From positions 1 through 34,884 of the forward strand of contig NZ_JAENIO010000043.1 in the NCBI RefSeq assembly GCF_016595415.1: a stretch of DNA of 34,884 bases, in the 5' to 3' direction. Below are positions 3,326-23,122 of the stretch, one piece after another. Position 1 is the stretch's first letter. Each line of letters opens with the position of its first letter. The translations under genes and the position numbers were made by a program. The stretch comes from Roseibacillus ishigakijimensis (GTDB lineage Bacteria; Verrucomicrobiota; Verrucomicrobiia; Verrucomicrobiales; Akkermansiaceae). Under the pieces are notes generated by a model. That model was not told the DNA's origin and made no database searches. It saw only the letters and a program-made list of their open reading frames with translations.

Positions 3326-4705
3326 CTAGAAGTGCAGCGCATGCCCGTCAGCATCGAGGGTGGCCTCGTGAATGGCCTCCGCGATGGTGGGGTGGGCATG
3401 GATAGTGCCGTGAATCTCGTCGGTGGTGAGCTCCATCTCCAGCGCCAGACCCATCTCGGCGATGAGGTCGGTGGCGTTCTCGCCAATGATGTGCGCGCCG
3501 AGGAGTTCCCCGTGCTCTTTGCCGTAGAGAAGCTTGACGAAGCCTTCGGTTTCGCCAATGGCCTGTGCCTTGCCGAGAGCCTGGTAAGGGAACTTGCCGA
3601 CTTTGTAGTCGATGCCCTCTTCCTTGAGCGCCTGTTCGGTTTTGCCCACCGAAGCCACTTCGGGGTGACAATAGGTGCAGCCGGGGAAGTTGCCCACCCG
3701 CTTGGGCTGGAAGCCTTCCACAAAGATGCCGTCGACACATTGGATGGCCTCATACATGCCGGTGTGCGCCAGCCAGGGAGGCCCATCGATGTCGCCGATG
3801 GCGTAGACATTGGGCAGATTGGTGGTGTAGCGCTCGTCGGTCTTGACGAAGCCGCGGTCGTCGAGCGCGGGCTCGGTGCCTCCGGGCAGGACCGGGGCCA
3901 CGCCAATGGCCACCAGACAGGTGTCGGCGGTCAGCTCCTGGGTGCCCTTCTTGTTTTCCACCGTCAGAGTCACACTGTCGCCGTTGTTCTTGAACTCGGT
4001 GACTTTGGTGTCGGTGAGGCAGTTGATGCCCAGCTTCTTGTAGGACTTCTGGAGAGCCTTGCCCACTTCCTCGTCCTCAACGGGAAGGATGTTGGGAAGC
4101 ATCTCGACCAAAGTGACTTCGGTGCCAAAGGCGTTGTAGACGTAGGCAAATTCCACTCCGATGGCACCCGCGCCGATGATGAGCATGGACTTGGGGCGCT
4201 CCTCGGTGATCATGGCGTGCTTGGAAGACAGCACGGTCTTGCCGTCGAAAGGAAGGGGTGGCAGTTCGCGGGGCTTGCAGCCGGTCGCGATGATGATGTT
4301 CTTGGCCTCGTGGACCTCCTTGTTGCCATCCTTGTCGGTCACGCCCACTTTGCCTTCGCCCTCGATGGAGCCAAAGCCTTTCAGGTAGTCGACCTTGTTC
4401 TTCTTGAAAAGAAACTCCACCCCGCCAGCGAGGCGGTCGGCCACCTTGCGGGAACGACCCACGACCTTGCCCCAGTCGAAGTTGAGGTTATCAAAAGAGA
4501 TGCCGAACTCGTCTGCCTGATGCTGGAGCTGGTGGTAGAGGTGGGCGTTTTTGAGAAGGGCTTTGGTAGGAATGCAACCCCAGTTCAGGCAAGTGCCGCC
4601 GGGACGTTCGACCTCCACACAGGCCACCTTCTTGCCCAACTGTCCCGCGCGAATGGCCGCAATGTAGCCGGCCGGGCCTCCACCAATCACAATCAAATCA
4701 TACAT
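3326..4705 (-). CDS. lpdA: dihydrolipoyl dehydrogenase
   Basis: This 459-residue flavoprotein is the E3 subunit. It reoxidises dihydrolipoamide in 2-oxoacid dehydrogenase complexes or the glycine cleavage system, using FAD and NAD. Features in order: FAD-binding GGGPAG near residue 8; redox-active disulfide in GGTCLNWGCIPTK (Cys39, Cys44); NAD-binding GAGAIGVE near 178; second FAD motif NVYAIGDIDG; and the C-terminal HAHPTIAE with catalytic His438 and Glu443. Length and order are normal for the family. It lies 44 bases downstream of the rpiB-glyA fusion on the same strand and is likely co-transcribed. SHMT and E3 both touch glycine/one-carbon metabolism, but no gcv genes are present, so the specific complex cannot be told. 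A strong terminator follows. Confidence 0.97.
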   Translation of the reverse strand: MYDLIVIGGGPAGYIAAIRAGQLGKKVACVEVERPGGTCLNWGCIPTKALLKNAHLYHQLQHQADEFGISFDNLNFDWGKVVGRSRKVADRLAGGVEFLFKKNKVDYLKGFGSIEGEGKVGVTDKDGNKEVHEAKNIIIATGCKPRELPPLPFDGKTVLSSKHAMITEERPKSMLIIGAGAIGVEFAYVYNAFGTEVTLVEMLPNILPVEDEEVGKALQKSYKKLGINCLTDTKVTEFKNNGDSVTLTVENKKGTQELTADTCLVAIGVAPVLPGGTEPALDDRGFVKTDERYTTNLPNVYAIGDIDGPPWLAHTGMYEAIQCVDGIFVEGFQPKRVGNFPGCTYCHPEVASVGKTEQALKEEGIDYKVGKFPYQALGKAQAIGETEGFVKLLYGKEHGELLGAHIIGENATDLIAEMGLALEMELTTDEIHGTIHAHPTIAEAIHEATLDADGHALHF

Positions 4706-18265: not shown

Positions 18266-18586
18266 TCAATTATTCAACTTGGCCGCCCGGATGTAATTCA
18301 CCACCGCCGCTTCCTCCGAGAGCGAGAGCCCGGCGTTGCCCGCCATCCCCGCCACCACGGGATGCCACTGGCCCAAGAGTTCCCCCTGGGGCAGCTGGGC
18401 CTCGTGACATTCGAGGCATTTGCGGCTGAAGACCCAATAACCCTCCCCCATTTGATCAAGGGAGATGCCCGCCTTGGCAGCCAGCCGGGGACGGGGCAAC
18501 GGCATCCCCTTCTCGTCAAGGCCAGTCGGACCACAGGCCGCCAGCAGGAATGCGACCAGCAAAAAAAGAAGGCAAAAGGACTTCAC
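18266..18586 (-). CDS. small cytochrome c lipoprotein
   Basis: This 106-residue protein has a lipoprotein signal (VAFLLAAC, acylated Cys18) and one haem c attachment site CLECH at residues 57-61. A Met in VAGMAGNAG near 81 is a possible sixth ligand, and a C-terminal helix EEAAVVNYIRAAKL ends the domain as in class I cytochromes. It would act as a small membrane-anchored electron carrier on the outer face of the inner membrane or in the periplasm. It is divergent from purL and is followed at once by the LysE gene, probably in one transcript. Confidence 0.82.
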   Translation of the reverse strand: MKSFCLLFLLVAFLLAACGPTGLDEKGMPLPRPRLAAKAGISLDQMGEGYWVFSRKCLECHEAQLPQGELLGQWHPVVAGMAGNAGLSLSEEAAVVNYIRAAKLNN

Positions 18587-18673: not shown

Positions 18674-21600
18674 ATGCCTACTGCCCTTCGGGTGCACGCG
18701 CTTTACGTCGAAAAACGTCCCGAACACAGCCAGCCCGCCCAGTCACTCCTCGCCGATCTGCGCGAGACTCTCGACCTGCCCCAACTCCGCGATCTCCGTC
18801 GCCTGCAGCGCTACTTCGTCGACGGCTTGAGCGAGGAGCACTTTGCACAAGCGAGCGAACTCATCCTTTCCGAGCCTTTCACTGAAGTCACTTACCGCGA
18901 ACTCCCCGAGGCCAGCCACCGCTTCGCCATCGAGTTCCTCCCGGGCCAATTCGACCAGCGTGCCGATTCCGCCGCCCAGTGCATCGCCATTCTCACCGGA
19001 GAAGAAGCGCCCCCCGTCAGCTCGGCACAAGTTTACCTCCTCGAGGGCGACCTCAGCGCCGACGATCTGGCCCGCATCAAGGACTACCTCATCAACCCCG
19101 TCGATTCCCACGAAGCCTCGCTGGAAATCCCCGAAACCCTCACTCCGCCGGTCAAGGAGCCCGCCGATGTCGCAATCCTGGAGGGTTTCCTGGCCAAAAA
19201 CGAAAGCGAACTCTCGGCTCTGCGCGACGAACTCGGCCTCGCCATGACCCTAGCCGATTTGATTCATACCCAAGGCTACTTCCGCGACGAGGAAAAGCGC
19301 GATCCCAGTCTCACCGAGATTAAGCTGCTCGACACTTACTGGTCCGATCACTGCCGCCACACCACCTTCCTAACCAAGATCGACGAGGTCACTTTCGACG
19401 ACGACACCGCCGTCATCCAGGAGAGCTACCGCCAGTATCAAAAGACCCGCGAAGCCCTCTACGGTGTCGATACCGAGCGCCCGGAAACCCTGATGGACCT
19501 CGCCATCATCGCCGCCAAGGAGCTGAAAAAATCGGGCGAACTCGACAACCTCGAAATCTCGGAGGAAATCAACGCCGCCTCCATCATCGTGGAAGTCCCG
19601 GTGGAAAAAGACGGCACCGTCACCAACGAGGAATACCTCATCCAGTTCAAGAACGAGACCCACAATCACCCCACCGAGATCGAGCCTTTCGGCGGGGCGG
19701 CCACCTGTCTCGGGGGCTGCATTCGCGACCCCCTCTCCGGTCGCGCTTACGTCTATCAGGCCATGCGCGTGACCGGAGCCTGGGACCCGCGCACGCCTTT
19801 TTCCGAGACTCTGCCCAACAAGTTGCCCCAGCGCAAAATCTGTCTCGAAGCGGCCCGCGGTTACTCCTCCTACGGCAACCAGATTGGACTCGCCACGGGC
19901 CAAGTGTCGGAAATCTACCACCCCGGCTACCTCGCCAAGCGCATGGAAATCGGAGCCGTGGTGGCCGCTTGTCCCCGCAGCCAGGTGCAGCGCGGCACCC
20001 CCGAACCCGGCGACATCATTCTCCTCATCGGCGGTCGCACCGGACGCGATGGCGTGGGCGGCGCGACCGGCTCTTCCAAAGAACACACCGACACCGCCTT
20101 GGAAAATTCCGCCGAAGTGCAAAAGGGCAATCCCCCCACCGAGCGCAAGGTGCAGCGCCTCTTCCGCAACCCGGAGCTTTCTTCCAAAATCAAGCGCTGC
20201 AACGACTTCGGCGCTGGCGGAGTCTCGGTCGCGATTGGCGAGCTGGCCGACAGCCTCGACATCGACCTCGATGCCGTGCCGAAAAAATACCAGGGCCTGG
20301 ATGGCACCGAACTCGCCATTTCCGAGTCCCAGGAGCGCATGGCCGTGGTCGTCGACCCGGCGGACGTGGCCTACTTCATCGCCGAATCCGACAAGGAGAA
20401 CCTCGAGTGCGTGCAAGTGGCCCAAGTCACCGACAGCGGCCGCCTCAACATGACCTGGCGCGGCCAAACCATCGTCAGCCTCACCCGCGCCTTCATCGAC
20501 ACCAATGGCGTGCAGGGCTCGGCGAAGATCCACGTCAACAAGCCGCATTTGACACCTGCGCTATCTTTTAACCATGAAAAACGAGAAAACCTACTTGAGC
20601 GCTGCTCATCAGATTCATTCCGAGAGTGCATCGGAAGCATTGGCGAAACAATCGCCGCTGTCCTACGAAGAGTGCATCGCGCAAGCGAAAGAGCTGGCGT
20701 CAAGCCGCCAGAAAGCCGCTCAGAACGGCTCGAACTCGACAGAGCCCTACGCTCCCTCGAAGAACGGGAACTTCGCAGCCTAAGCGACCAGTTTCTTTCC
20801 CAGGAAAGCTTTGATGCGGAATGGGAAGCCGCCGGGAAGCTTGGCGGGGCTGAGCAGCAGGTTTATCCCGAGCGGGATGGAACCCATTTCGTAAAAGCCA
20901 ATAACGGCTCCTACCATGGAAGTTGGTTACAATACTTGGAGAGGCTCCATCTTCACCGCCTCCTCTTTCCCGAAACCGCCTACGAACTTTTAGGCTTACT
21001 TGAAGATGATTTTTCACTGGCTTGCGTGGTGAAACAAATCACCGCCCGCACCCAACGCTCGCAATCCGGTGTTCCTCTAGGAGCTTCTCGCAGCCAAGTG
21101 GAAGCCACAATGAAAAGCCGCTTCGGGGCCTTTCGCTTCCGAAACGACGACTACTATATCCCCAGTATGGACGTATTCGTCGAGGACCTCCACGACGAAA
21201 ACGTGCTCCTCGCCGAAGACGGCAGGACCCTCCTCTTCATTGACCCCGTTCTGTTTTATCGCCCGGCGGACATTCCGGTGCCGCAACCGGCCCCCAGTGC
21301 ACTCGCTTCCCATCTTGCCTCCCTCAACCTCGCCTCCCAAAAAGGCTTGGGTGAGATGTTCGACTCCTCCATTGGGGCGGGCACGGTGCTGTCGCCCTTT
21401 GGCGGAAAAAACCAGCTCACTCCGCCCGATGCGATGGTGGCCAAGGTGCCGGTGCTCGCTGGCGAAACCGAGGCCTGCACCCACATGTCGTGGGCCTTCG
21501 ATCCCGAGCTCAGCAGCGCCTCGCCCTTCCACGGCAGCGTCCATGCAGTGGCGGAATCCGTTTGCAAGCTGGTCGCCACCGGGGCTCGCCTCCGCGACAC

Positions 21601-23122
21601 GCGGCTCACTTTCCAAGAATATTTCCCCAAGCTCGGCGACGACCCCGCTCGCTGGGGTCTGCCCTTCGCCGCCCTGCTGGGTGCCTACCACGCGCAGCAC
21701 GGGCTCCGTCTCGCCGCCATCGGCGGAAAAGACTCCATGTCGGGCTCCTTCAAGGACCTCGACGTGCCCCCCACCCTCGTCTCCTTTGCCCTCGCGCCCG
21801 GCTCGGCCCGGCTCGCAGTGTCGCCTGAATTCAAAGAGAGCGATTCCCAACTCTCCCTCGCCAGTGCGCCCACCGACGAAGAAGGCTTGCCCGACTACCC
21901 CGCGCTTATTGCCTTGGCTGACCAGATTCACCAGCTGGTCGAGGCCGGAAAAGTGCGCGCGCTGAAATACGTGGGCCAGCCCGGTCTCGGTCACGCCCTC
22001 GCCATCTGCGCGTTGGGCAATGACAGGGGAGCCGAAGTCACCAGCGACCTCGCTCCTCTCTCGCGCGCGCCCTACACCTTCCTTTTGGAATTGGCAGCCG
22101 GAGTCGAGCTTCCGGACGGCTTCACCGTAATCGGAAAAACCACTGCCCAAGCCGAGCTGGTGCTCAACGGCGAAAGGCACTCTCTGGACGACCTGCGCGC
22201 CGCCTACACCGGCACTTTGGAAAGTGTTTACCCCACCGTGGCAAAGTCCGCCTCCGAGCCCGCCGCCCGCGAGTTCACCGTGGCGGCAGTCGAAAATCCG
22301 GCCGCCCGCCAGTCCACGCCCCGCAGCCAGAGCGCCCGGCCCCGGGTTCTCATCCCCGTTTTCCCAGGCACCAATTGCGAATACGACAGCGCCCGGGCCT
22401 TTGACCAAGCGGGAGCAGCGAGCGAAATCTTCGTCTTCCGCAACCTAACCCCCAAGGCCATCGAGGAATCCCTACAGGCCTTTGCCGAAAAAATCCGGAG
22501 CAGCGAAATCCTCTTCTTGCCTGGCGGTTTCAGCTCCGGAGACGAACCCGATGGCTCTGCCAAGTTCATCGCCACCATCCTGCGCAATCCCCGCATTGCC
22601 GACGCGGTGGCCGATCTGCATCAGGAGCGCCAGGGCCTCATCCTCGGCATTTGCAATGGCTTCCAGGCCCTCGTCAAATCGGGACTCCTCCCCGGCGGCG
22701 ACGGGGAAGTGAGCGCCACCCTGACCCACAACCCCATCGCGCGCCACCTCTCCACCTACGTCACCACCCGCATCGCCAACACCAACTCGCCGTGGCTCGC
22801 CAACTGTCAGGTCGGCGACCTCCACCACATCGCGATGTCCCATGGCGAAGGCCGCTTCCTCGCCGACGAAGCCACCTTGGAGGCCTTGGTGAAAAACGGT
22901 CAAATCGCGACTCAATATTGCGATGCCACCGGCGAGCCCACCATGGCCGAGCCCTGCAATCCCAACCAGAGCGCCCTCGCCATCGAAGGCATCACCAGTC
23001 CCTGTGGACGCATTCTGGGGAAAATGGGTCACACCGAACGGCGCGGAGCTTACGTGGCGAAGAACATCCCCGGCGAAAAGCATCAACCCCTCTTCAAAGC
23101 CGGGGTGGCTTATTTCCGATAG
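18674..23122 (+). CDS. purL: phosphoribosylformylglycinamidine synthase, interrupted in frame by a 240-residue foreign segment
   Basis: Large-type PurL makes FGAM from FGAR, glutamine and ATP. From the ATG at 18674 (MPTALRVHALYVEKRPEHSQ) the frame runs 1482 codons; the frame is open further upstream but that part is not PurL-like. PurL motifs: LLDTYWSDHCRHTTF, FKNETHNHPTEIEPFGGAAT, GARGYSSY-like region, GGRTGRDGVGGATGSS, KRCNDFGAGG; second half NLASQKGLGEMFDSSIGAGT and AAIGGKDSMSG; C-terminal class I glutaminase with FPGTNCEYDSARAF, GGFSSGDE, GICNGFQALV (nucleophile Cys) and SHGEGRF. Residues 625-864 are unrelated to PurL and encode a kinase-like domain (see the insert entry). Without them the protein would be about 1242 residues, normal for the family. 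The insert sits in the linker between the two AIRS-type halves. Whether the product folds and works, or is spliced or cleaved, cannot be told from sequence. Confidence 0.92.
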   Translation: MPTALRVHALYVEKRPEHSQPAQSLLADLRETLDLPQLRDLRRLQRYFVDGLSEEHFAQASELILSEPFTEVTYRELPEASHRFAIEFLPGQFDQRADSAAQCIAILTGEEAPPVSSAQVYLLEGDLSADDLARIKDYLINPVDSHEASLEIPETLTPPVKEPADVAILEGFLAKNESELSALRDELGLAMTLADLIHTQGYFRDEEKRDPSLTEIKLLDTYWSDHCRHTTFLTKIDEVTFDDDTAVIQESYRQYQKTREALYGVDTERPETLMDLAIIAAKELKKSGELDNLEISEEINAASIIVEVPVEKDGTVTNEEYLIQFKNETHNHPTEIEPFGGAATCLGGCIRDPLSGRAYVYQAMRVTGAWDPRTPFSETLPNKLPQRKICLEAARGYSSYGNQIGLATGQVSEIYHPGYLAKRMEIGAVVAACPRSQVQRGTPEPGDIILLIGGRTGRDGVGGATGSSKEHTDTALENSAEVQKGNPPTERKVQRLFRNPELSSKIKRCNDFGAGGVSVAIGELADSLDIDLDAVPKKYQGLDGTELAISESQERMAVVVDPADVAYFIAESDKENLECVQVAQVTDSGRLNMTWRGQTIVSLTRAFIDTNGVQGSAKIHVNKPHLTPALSFNHEKRENLLERCSSDSFRECIGSIGETIAAVLRRVHRASERAGVKPPESRSERLELDRALRSLEERELRSLSDQFLSQESFDAEWEAAGKLGGAEQQVYPERDGTHFVKANNGSYHGSWLQYLERLHLHRLLFPETAYELLGLLEDDFSLACVVKQITARTQRSQSGVPLGASRSQVEATMKSRFGAFRFRNDDYYIPSMDVFVEDLHDENVLLAEDGRTLLFIDPVLFYRPADIPVPQPAPSALASHLASLNLASQKGLGEMFDSSIGAGTVLSPFGGKNQLTPPDAMVAKVPVLAGETEACTHMSWAFDPELSSASPFHGSVHAVAESVCKLVATGARLRDTRLTFQEYFPKLGDDPARWGLPFAALLGAYHAQHGLRLAAIGGKDSMSGSFKDLDVPPTLVSFALAPGSARLAVSPEFKESDSQLSLASAPTDEEGLPDYPALIALADQIHQLVEAGKVRALKYVGQPGLGHALAICALGNDRGAEVTSDLAPLSRAPYTFLLELAAGVELPDGFTVIGKTTAQAELVLNGERHSLDDLRAAYTGTLESVYPTVAKSASEPAAREFTVAAVENPAARQSTPRSQSARPRVLIPVFPGTNCEYDSARAFDQAGAASEIFVFRNLTPKAIEESLQAFAEKIRSSEILFLPGGFSSGDEPDGSAKFIATILRNPRIADAVADLHQERQGLILGICNGFQALVKSGLLPGGDGEVSATLTHNPIARHLSTYVTTRIANTNSPWLANCQVGDLHHIAMSHGEGRFLADEATLEALVKNGQIATQYCDATGEPTMAEPCNPNQSALAIEGITSPCGRILGKMGHTERRGAYVAKNIPGEKHQPLFKAGVAYFR
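20546..21265 (+). mobile_element. 720-bp in-frame insert in purL carrying a kinase-like domain
   Basis: PurL sequence stops at AKIHVNKP (20545) and resumes at ADIPVPQPAPSAL (21266). The DNA between is exactly 720 bp, so the frame is kept and contains no stop. CCG occurs at both junctions (20543-20545 and 21263-21265), a possible 3-bp target duplication. Sampled 60-base blocks inside are 48% and 53% GC, against 67% in PurL just upstream. In the purL frame the second two-thirds reads as a kinase-like fold: AEQQVYPERDG (glycine-rich/first strands), THFVKANN (candidate ATP Lys), LHDENVLL (catalytic loop H-D-x-x-N) and LLFIDPVLF (metal-binding Asp). This resembles the kinase domain of bacterial polyvalent proteins. 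The first third is better explained by a separate ORF at 20574-20783. No terminal inverted repeats or transposase are present. Confidence 0.8.
20574..20783 (+). CDS. small ORF inside the purL insert, offset frame
   Basis: This 69-residue ORF starts at the ATG 20574 (MKNEKTYLSAAHQIHSESAS) and is read in a different frame from purL. Its hydrophilic, helical-looking text (SPLSYEECIAQAKELASSRQ) looks more protein-like than the overlapping purL-frame translation, which is Arg/Ser/Glu-rich. It ends at 20783, just before the region where the kinase-like domain becomes recognisable in the purL frame. The natural unit before insertion may thus have been a two-gene cassette (small protein, then kinase), or one protein joined by a -1 frame shift. 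TTGACA at 20549-20554 precedes it, but no correctly spaced -10 was found. It may not be expressed now. Confidence 0.5.
   Translation: MKNEKTYLSAAHQIHSESASEALAKQSPLSYEECIAQAKELASSRQKAAQNGSNSTEPYAPSKNGNFAA

Follow-up and report, generated by a model that had tools for sequence, protein, structure and literature searches.

In-frame insertions in housekeeping genes are known from inteins and Rickettsia palindromic elements, and in the type II toxin-antitoxin kinases HipBA and HipBST a small partner lies beside the kinase, which is the layout expected of an antitoxin-toxin pair. The ShiLan domain, in its authors' account, is an insert in a phage DNA methylase with a hidden HNH endonuclease, for which a leaderless start was proposed (PMC11855218). 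Iyer et al. 2017 defined the Kinase-PolyVal family, with Verrucomicrobia as a named lineage (PMC5512222), and a conflict gene has been reported to be stabilised by overlap with the gene of a biosynthetic enzyme in a synthetic relE-in-ilvA entanglement (PMC10359631). Here we describe a locus in a window of 34,884 nucleotides from Roseibacillus ishigakijimensis (contig NZ_JAENIO010000043.1, positions 1 to 34,884), where purL contains an inserted module with two coding frames: a phage-type Kinase-PolyVal domain (K) read in the frame of PurL and a small gene (S) nested in the +1 frame. On balance we lean towards the view that S and K are a dual-coding, toxin-antitoxin-like pair that persists in frame in housekeeping genes.

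PurL as a whole lies on the forward strand at 18674-23122, within a mechanically called open reading frame (ORF) that begins earlier, at 18362. The N-terminal host part (18674..20545, +) is matched by TIGR01857 at residues 10-626, the C-terminal host part (21290..23122, +) carries GATase_5 (Pfam, TIGR01857), and the TIGR01857 match to the window PurL (1603 bits) is split over two stretches. Within the host part of the ORF, Pfam recognises AIRS_C and GATase_5. The initial annotation had described a stop-free insert of lower GC content at 20546-21265. Indeed, the frame is open throughout this interval, and GC content drops from ~0.63 to ~0.50-0.60. Its length of exactly 240 codons, however, was only the cut chosen by that reader: alignment with other inserts places the approximate edges of the module at 20549..21289 (+), similarity extending from ~20549 (LTP..) to ~21289 and including the residues after YRP (ADIPVP). 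The corresponding linkers of three genomes of the same genus (G001-G003) are shorter. Because the post-YRP residues resemble other inserts, the two CCG triplets that had been noted on either side represent no demonstrable target duplication; a 3-bp duplication was rejected, since insert similarity runs past the CCG-defined edge.

The insert DNA is present in a single copy in the window's own genome (G000), where PurL is matched once and PF18762 nowhere else at E<=1. An intein was rejected because no intein/Hint splicing domain was matched at E<=1 in Pfam or NCBIfam, in agreement with the earlier failure to see intein motifs, and a group I or II intron was rejected because the frame is open and no catalytic RNA was matched in Rfam at E<=1 in 20300-21500. 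The occurrence of the insert in 14 genomes (see below) makes an assembly artefact, which had been a concern, very unlikely. As judged from the sequence, the insert is an unspliced, in-frame domain of PurL.

The core of K (20843..21253, +; residues 724-860 in the PurL frame) matches PF18762 with E 6.3e-25 and 88.5 bits, the Pfam cut-off being 27 bits. The kinase-like domain suspected earlier is thus borne out, together with the motifs FVKANN, HDENVLL and FIDP; of the 14 PurL inserts, 13 or 14 conserve the Lys, the Asp/Asn and the Asp that lie within or next to these motifs. The window K possesses the Glu before strand 2, the Lys, the Gln, the catalytic Asp/Asn and the Asp. The catalytic residues are fully intact in 13/14 PurL inserts and in 38/40 of the inserts that we found in the NAD-dependent DNA ligase LigA (see below), and PurL or LigA probably carries an active kinase in many genomes of the family. 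An AlphaFold model of K was of modest confidence (64.8). Protein kinases ranked first in structure comparisons with Foldseek and VIA-align, with values below firm thresholds (E 0.016, Z 6.5), so that the kinase assignment rests on Pfam and the motifs; an insert profile gave nothing significant against the PDB sequences (best E 0.22). The kinase part had no match in phages or in plasmids and two weak loci in viral contigs, one of them within a 2795-residue ORF. No PADLOC model matched K or two S proteins at E<=1.

How K could be produced was examined by looking for a start codon of its own. No conserved K start was found among the inserts: ATG is missing from the 75 codons preceding the core in 35 of the 40 LigA frames, and the sole common start candidate in seven PurL inserts was a TTG near the S start, present in six. 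The TTG of the TTGACA motif described below was dropped as a K start, as G602 and G551 have TTA. In view of this we consider it most likely that K is synthesised as part of the host enzyme, probably as one of its domains. Each of the 14 insert-bearing genomes has a single PurL match at E<=1e-100, which would mean that the insert-bearing PurL must work if the pathway does (several of these genomes are incomplete).

S occupies 20574..20783 (+), an ORF that was absent from the initial annotation. It runs from ATG to TAA in the +1 frame, encodes 69 residues and overlaps the N-terminal part of K; an S of 65-71 residues, with its ATG and stop, is kept in 14/14 PurL inserts. An AlphaFold 2 model of S showed two helices with modest confidence (pLDDT, the predicted local distance difference test score, 69.5). 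For the codon-position test, differences per codon at host positions 1, 2 and 3 were counted between the closest disjoint pairs of inserts; if the host frame alone were coding, its third positions should be the most variable. They are so in the kinase region of six pairs of PurL inserts (0.167/0.127/0.413), whereas the S region of the same pairs gave 0.285/0.147/0.253 (chi-square p 5e-9). In 13 disjoint pairs of LigA inserts the pattern was even reversed: third positions were the slowest in the S region (0.271/0.163/0.125) as opposed to the kinase region (0.124/0.082/0.329). Third positions change most in PurL, in LigA and in the kinase core, as is normal. Because a +1-frame protein yields precisely such a shift or reversal, and because the pattern of the kinase core is normal, both S and K appear to be under selection. 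We conclude from these patterns, examined in PurL and LigA inserts only, that S is a coding gene under selection. Its third positions are slightly slower than those of the kinase, which leaves room for some host-frame constraint.

The LigA inserts encode a different S, whose +1 frame has a conserved motif of the NGSxx[KR]PNP type in 40/40 ORFs of our set; the LigA genes of G543 and G557, excluded from this set by a motif filter, both have the insert and S. Where the upstream block described next is present, LigA S has 68-84 residues (n=32). G015 and G021 offer only GTG at the S start, and the G553 copy is cut by a contig end.

A conserved, promoter-like (putative) block, TTGACA-N7-TATCTT (20549..20567, +), lies upstream of the S start. 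Across the 14 PurL frames, the pattern TT[GA]AC[AG]-N7-TANNNT-N6-ATG is found at 14/14 S starts and at 0/643 other ATGs. In the 40 LigA-insert ORFs, TTGAC-N16-19-TA precedes 32 of 1211 ATGs, and all 32 open S (0/1179 others). The same TTGAC specifies Leu-Thr in the PurL frame and Val/Ile/Leu-Asp in that of LigA. Of the LigA ORFs, 33 could be used in the codon test of this block and 7/40 were unplaced; TTGAC is complete in 30/33, and although Asp/Glu may be preceded by Val, Ile or Leu, the codon of that residue is NTT in 32/33 (background 1232/8117). Likewise, the PurL block has an NTA codon in 14/14 inserts (background 205/3157) and encodes Leu as TTR in 14/14 (background 167/1943). Third bases that are fixed while the amino acid changes point to selection on the block as DNA, and its maintenance as DNA although it is read in different frames suggests that S is driven by its own, putative, promoter. 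In its layout the LigA block is similar to a sigma-70 promoter from which a leaderless message would start.

The pairing of S with K is seen in 14/14 PurL inserts and in 40/40 LigA ORFs (one of them cut short), and it occurs in four settings: stand-alone genes, polyvalent-type proteins, PurL and LigA. Among the kinase loci of the phylum (24 counted of 33 places, a few of the 24 being LigA inserts), a +1 ORF of at least 45 residues lies beside the kinase in 21/24 and a +2 ORF in 7/24. A search with the PurL-type S recovered the 14 inserts, a remnant in G524 and three weak matches. Large polyvalent-type proteins with PolyVal kinases were noted at L083, L086, L087, L264 and L269, with a +1 ORF beside the kinase in the four examined (L083, L086, L087 and L269); such proteins are a possible source of the modules. 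Outside the phylum, L075, from a Cyclobacteriaceae metagenome-assembled genome (MAG), has a stand-alone kinase gene at 3773-4414 and a +1 ORF at 3786-3935 that starts 13 nucleotides after the kinase start, which suggests that the S/K overlap also exists in Bacteroidota.

We therefore propose a working model, which we regard as somewhat better than an even bet. K would be a minimal polyvalent-type kinase that is read in the purL frame and made probably only as a domain of PurL, which would stay whole and work with K accommodated in a loose linker. S would be translated in the +1 frame, starting at an ATG of its own and probably served by a separate internal promoter, and would restrain K, the two being most likely an antitoxin- and toxin-like pair with a potential role in addiction or defence. 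With K fused to the single PurL that was found in the genome, and with S nested in that stretch of DNA, a frameshift or stop in K would break PurL, and the module could be removed only by in-frame deletion. It would be swapped between relatives by recombination and at times lost through in-frame deletion. The broader proposition, that the module represents a new kind of element, selfish or defensive, in which an antitoxin-like gene lies in an alternative frame across its kinase partner and the pair sits in frame within housekeeping enzymes (at two PurL sites and one LigA site), with an internal promoter for S, is held more tentatively, at slightly less than even.

Several points weigh against this model. 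The conservation of K is by itself no demonstration of toxicity, and the S proteins tried have no credible family match in Pfam, PADLOC or PHROGs. The 7-nucleotide spacer of the PurL block is too short, a standard promoter having 16-18; a promoter scan, applied to the window and not to the LigA blocks, found no standard promoter; and 8/40 LigA ORFs are without the ATG-based block (one is cut by the contig end and two have GTG for ATG). All compared sequences are akin, so the p values overstate their independence. As for exchange, the ratio of kinase to host third-position divergence has a median of 1.08 over 741 LigA pairs, which makes exchange a feature of some pairs and not of all, and dual coding may explain part of the low divergence within inserts.

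A profile built from seven inserts was run against a family set of 260 genomes, in which the N-terminal part of PurL is present in 154/260 at E<=1e-100, and 61 more PurL frames were read for linker content. Seven linkers were left uncut by the pattern (G539, G545, G517, G512, G499, G497, G610); their PurL frames are of normal length and have no insert by the profile search. In total, 14/260 genomes carry the domain at the same PurL linker and two more keep remnants, and none of G001-G003 has it (profile search; linkers read). A scan of genome contigs gave 12 loci, of which the six nearest (L069-L074, taken to be G602, G522, G611, G527, G523 and G526 and counted once) are 59-60% identical and have this domain at the identical PurL position; they are Akkermansiaceae, Verrucomicrobiaceae or Verrucomicrobiales MAGs and are all among the 14. 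A foreign polyvalent-protein kinase in the PurL linker, as the initial annotation had imagined, is thus retained, but not its status as a singular event; an old feature conserved among relatives is only half borne out, as the domain recurs in the family and is missing from the closest relatives. PF18762 itself is found in 76/260 genomes at E<=0.01. Forty-four candidate loci were examined: 42 are LigA, with the kinase at one site, and two are large polyvalent-type proteins. LigA inserts thus number at least 42, some further long PF18762 frames lying outside the 44 examined.

On a tree of 74 PurL proteins (24/71 inner branches weak; G539 dropped), insert presence requires at least 11 changes, gain and loss not being distinguished. 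Given the 14/260 occurrence, the absence from the closest relatives and these changes, the insert seems to be an element that has been gained, lost or exchanged repeatedly, and not a fixture of the family. This argues against a domesticated regulatory domain, useful to the host, in which K, once captured, would regulate PurL or LigA or sense the phage or nucleotide state and S would regulate K. Such a domain would fit the purifying pattern of K, its largely intact catalytic residues and the occupation of identical sites in many genomes; it fits poorly with the patchiness, with related modules being present both in large polyvalent-type proteins and in an enzyme unrelated to PurL, and with decay. 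Indeed, G524 (L134) keeps a remnant of ~56 insert residues that has lost the kinase while retaining the block, the ATG and both S helix regions in an 84-residue ORF, and G615 (L192) has a still shorter scar, so that loss does occur. As a single case, G524 has the appearance expected if an antitoxin survives its toxin. In the LigA of G021 (L089), the kinase lacks the catalytic Asp, the Asn and the later Asp, and S is open over 74 residues from a GTG; S may be retained here even as the kinase decays. We judge domestication unlikely, albeit the most serious of the alternatives.

The exchange of inserts could also be the work of a purely selfish, ShiLan-like element, with a hidden frame responsible for homing or recombination and a host frame that is only padding. 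The layout would be that of ShiLan, in frame, unspliced and with a hidden out-of-frame gene (as described in PMC11855218), and low-divergence tracts do run across inserts. Between the PurL genes of G552 and G550, third-position differences number 6/155 in the kinase, as against 95/290 before the insert and 199/914 after it; the low-divergence stretch continues for ~280 codons into a conserved part of PurL and, further out, divergence is higher but uneven. Similarly, in the LigA pairs G525/G550, G525/G552, G508/G550 and G556/G512, stretches of 100-175 codons close to the insert start contain 2-4 differences. These tracts suggest that some inserts were exchanged by recombination between relatives. 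Nevertheless, S has only ~70 residues and no HNH or other nuclease match in Pfam or PHROGs, and the host frame encodes a conserved kinase and hence no padding, which leaves a homing element a rather improbable explanation.

An old PurL domain that was inherited vertically and lost many times independently, with no mobility, appears slightly less probable still. The G524 and G615 remnants show that losses happen, the inserts of near neighbours are alike, and the median LigA ratio given above also speaks for it. In the G552/G550 PurL pair and the four LigA pairs, however, the insert is less diverged than its flanks, and in LigA of G554/G512 the opposite holds, part of the insert being more diverged than the adjoining host. 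Finally, the +1 ORF might arise passively from sequence constraint on the N-terminus of the kinase, K alone being of importance. This would agree with the lack of known relatives of S but is very improbable, as the third-position pattern is shifted or reversed in two insert families, the start, stop and upstream block are conserved, and kinases in other contexts also have such an ORF.

A divergent kinase occupies a second PurL site, between EINAASIVVPV and TEEWLIQFKNETHNHP, in three genomes (L142, L143 and L144, in G552, G553 and G550; PF18762 E 0.013 for the one of three tested), with a +1 ORF starting with ATG in 3/3 and TTGACA upstream. In several g13 genomes (for instance L178, L142 and L183), TDHRSPITDHL, ARASCPPP and other short peptides recur in the PurL linker. 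These look like in-frame intergenic repeats, so several insertions may use this linker as a landing pad.

If the dual-coding toxin-antitoxin-like model is correct, entanglement with housekeeping genes, until now a concept of genetic engineering, is also a natural means of retaining a conflict module. Gene pairs of a selfish or toxin-like kind would then have a new route to becoming hard to lose, and the Kinase-PolyVal family would gain a hidden partner gene. The module offers a clean example of bacterial dual coding that is open to testing and probably includes an internal promoter. No earlier report of it (PF18762, PurL or ligase insertions, nested antitoxins) was found in the literature searched, which was mostly without subscription-journal papers and bioRxiv. 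Compared with described in-frame insertions, the Rickettsia palindromic elements invoked in the initial annotation are similar in logic only: the present module consists of two selected genes and not of a short repeat, and, unlike inteins, it has no splicing domain that we could find. As in type II toxin-antitoxin systems, a gene for a small protein is paired with an enzyme gene; unlike in HipBA and HipBST, the partner is nested out of frame and the kinase lies within a metabolic enzyme, and neither HipA nor HipB was matched in Pfam. K belongs to the family of PF18762 and has its signature residues (Glu, Gln, active site) as described by Iyer et al. 2017, whose main text does not mention 'purl', 'housekeeping' or 'overlapping' (PMC5512222). 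The relE-in-ilvA pair was engineered, while the overlap here is natural, lies between two proteins of the module and involves a kinase fused to the host (PMC10359631). The nearest precedent for the layout is ShiLan, which, by its published description, also is an in-frame insert in an enzyme gene, apparently unspliced, patchy and with a second gene in another frame (PMC11855218); for our module, the shared absence of splicing is read from sequence only. ShiLan's hidden frame encodes an HNH nuclease, and what its host frame contributes is an apparent loop (PMC11855218), whereas here the host frame encodes a conserved kinase, S is small and without nuclease match, the hosts are bacterial PurL and LigA, and a conserved DNA block lies upstream.
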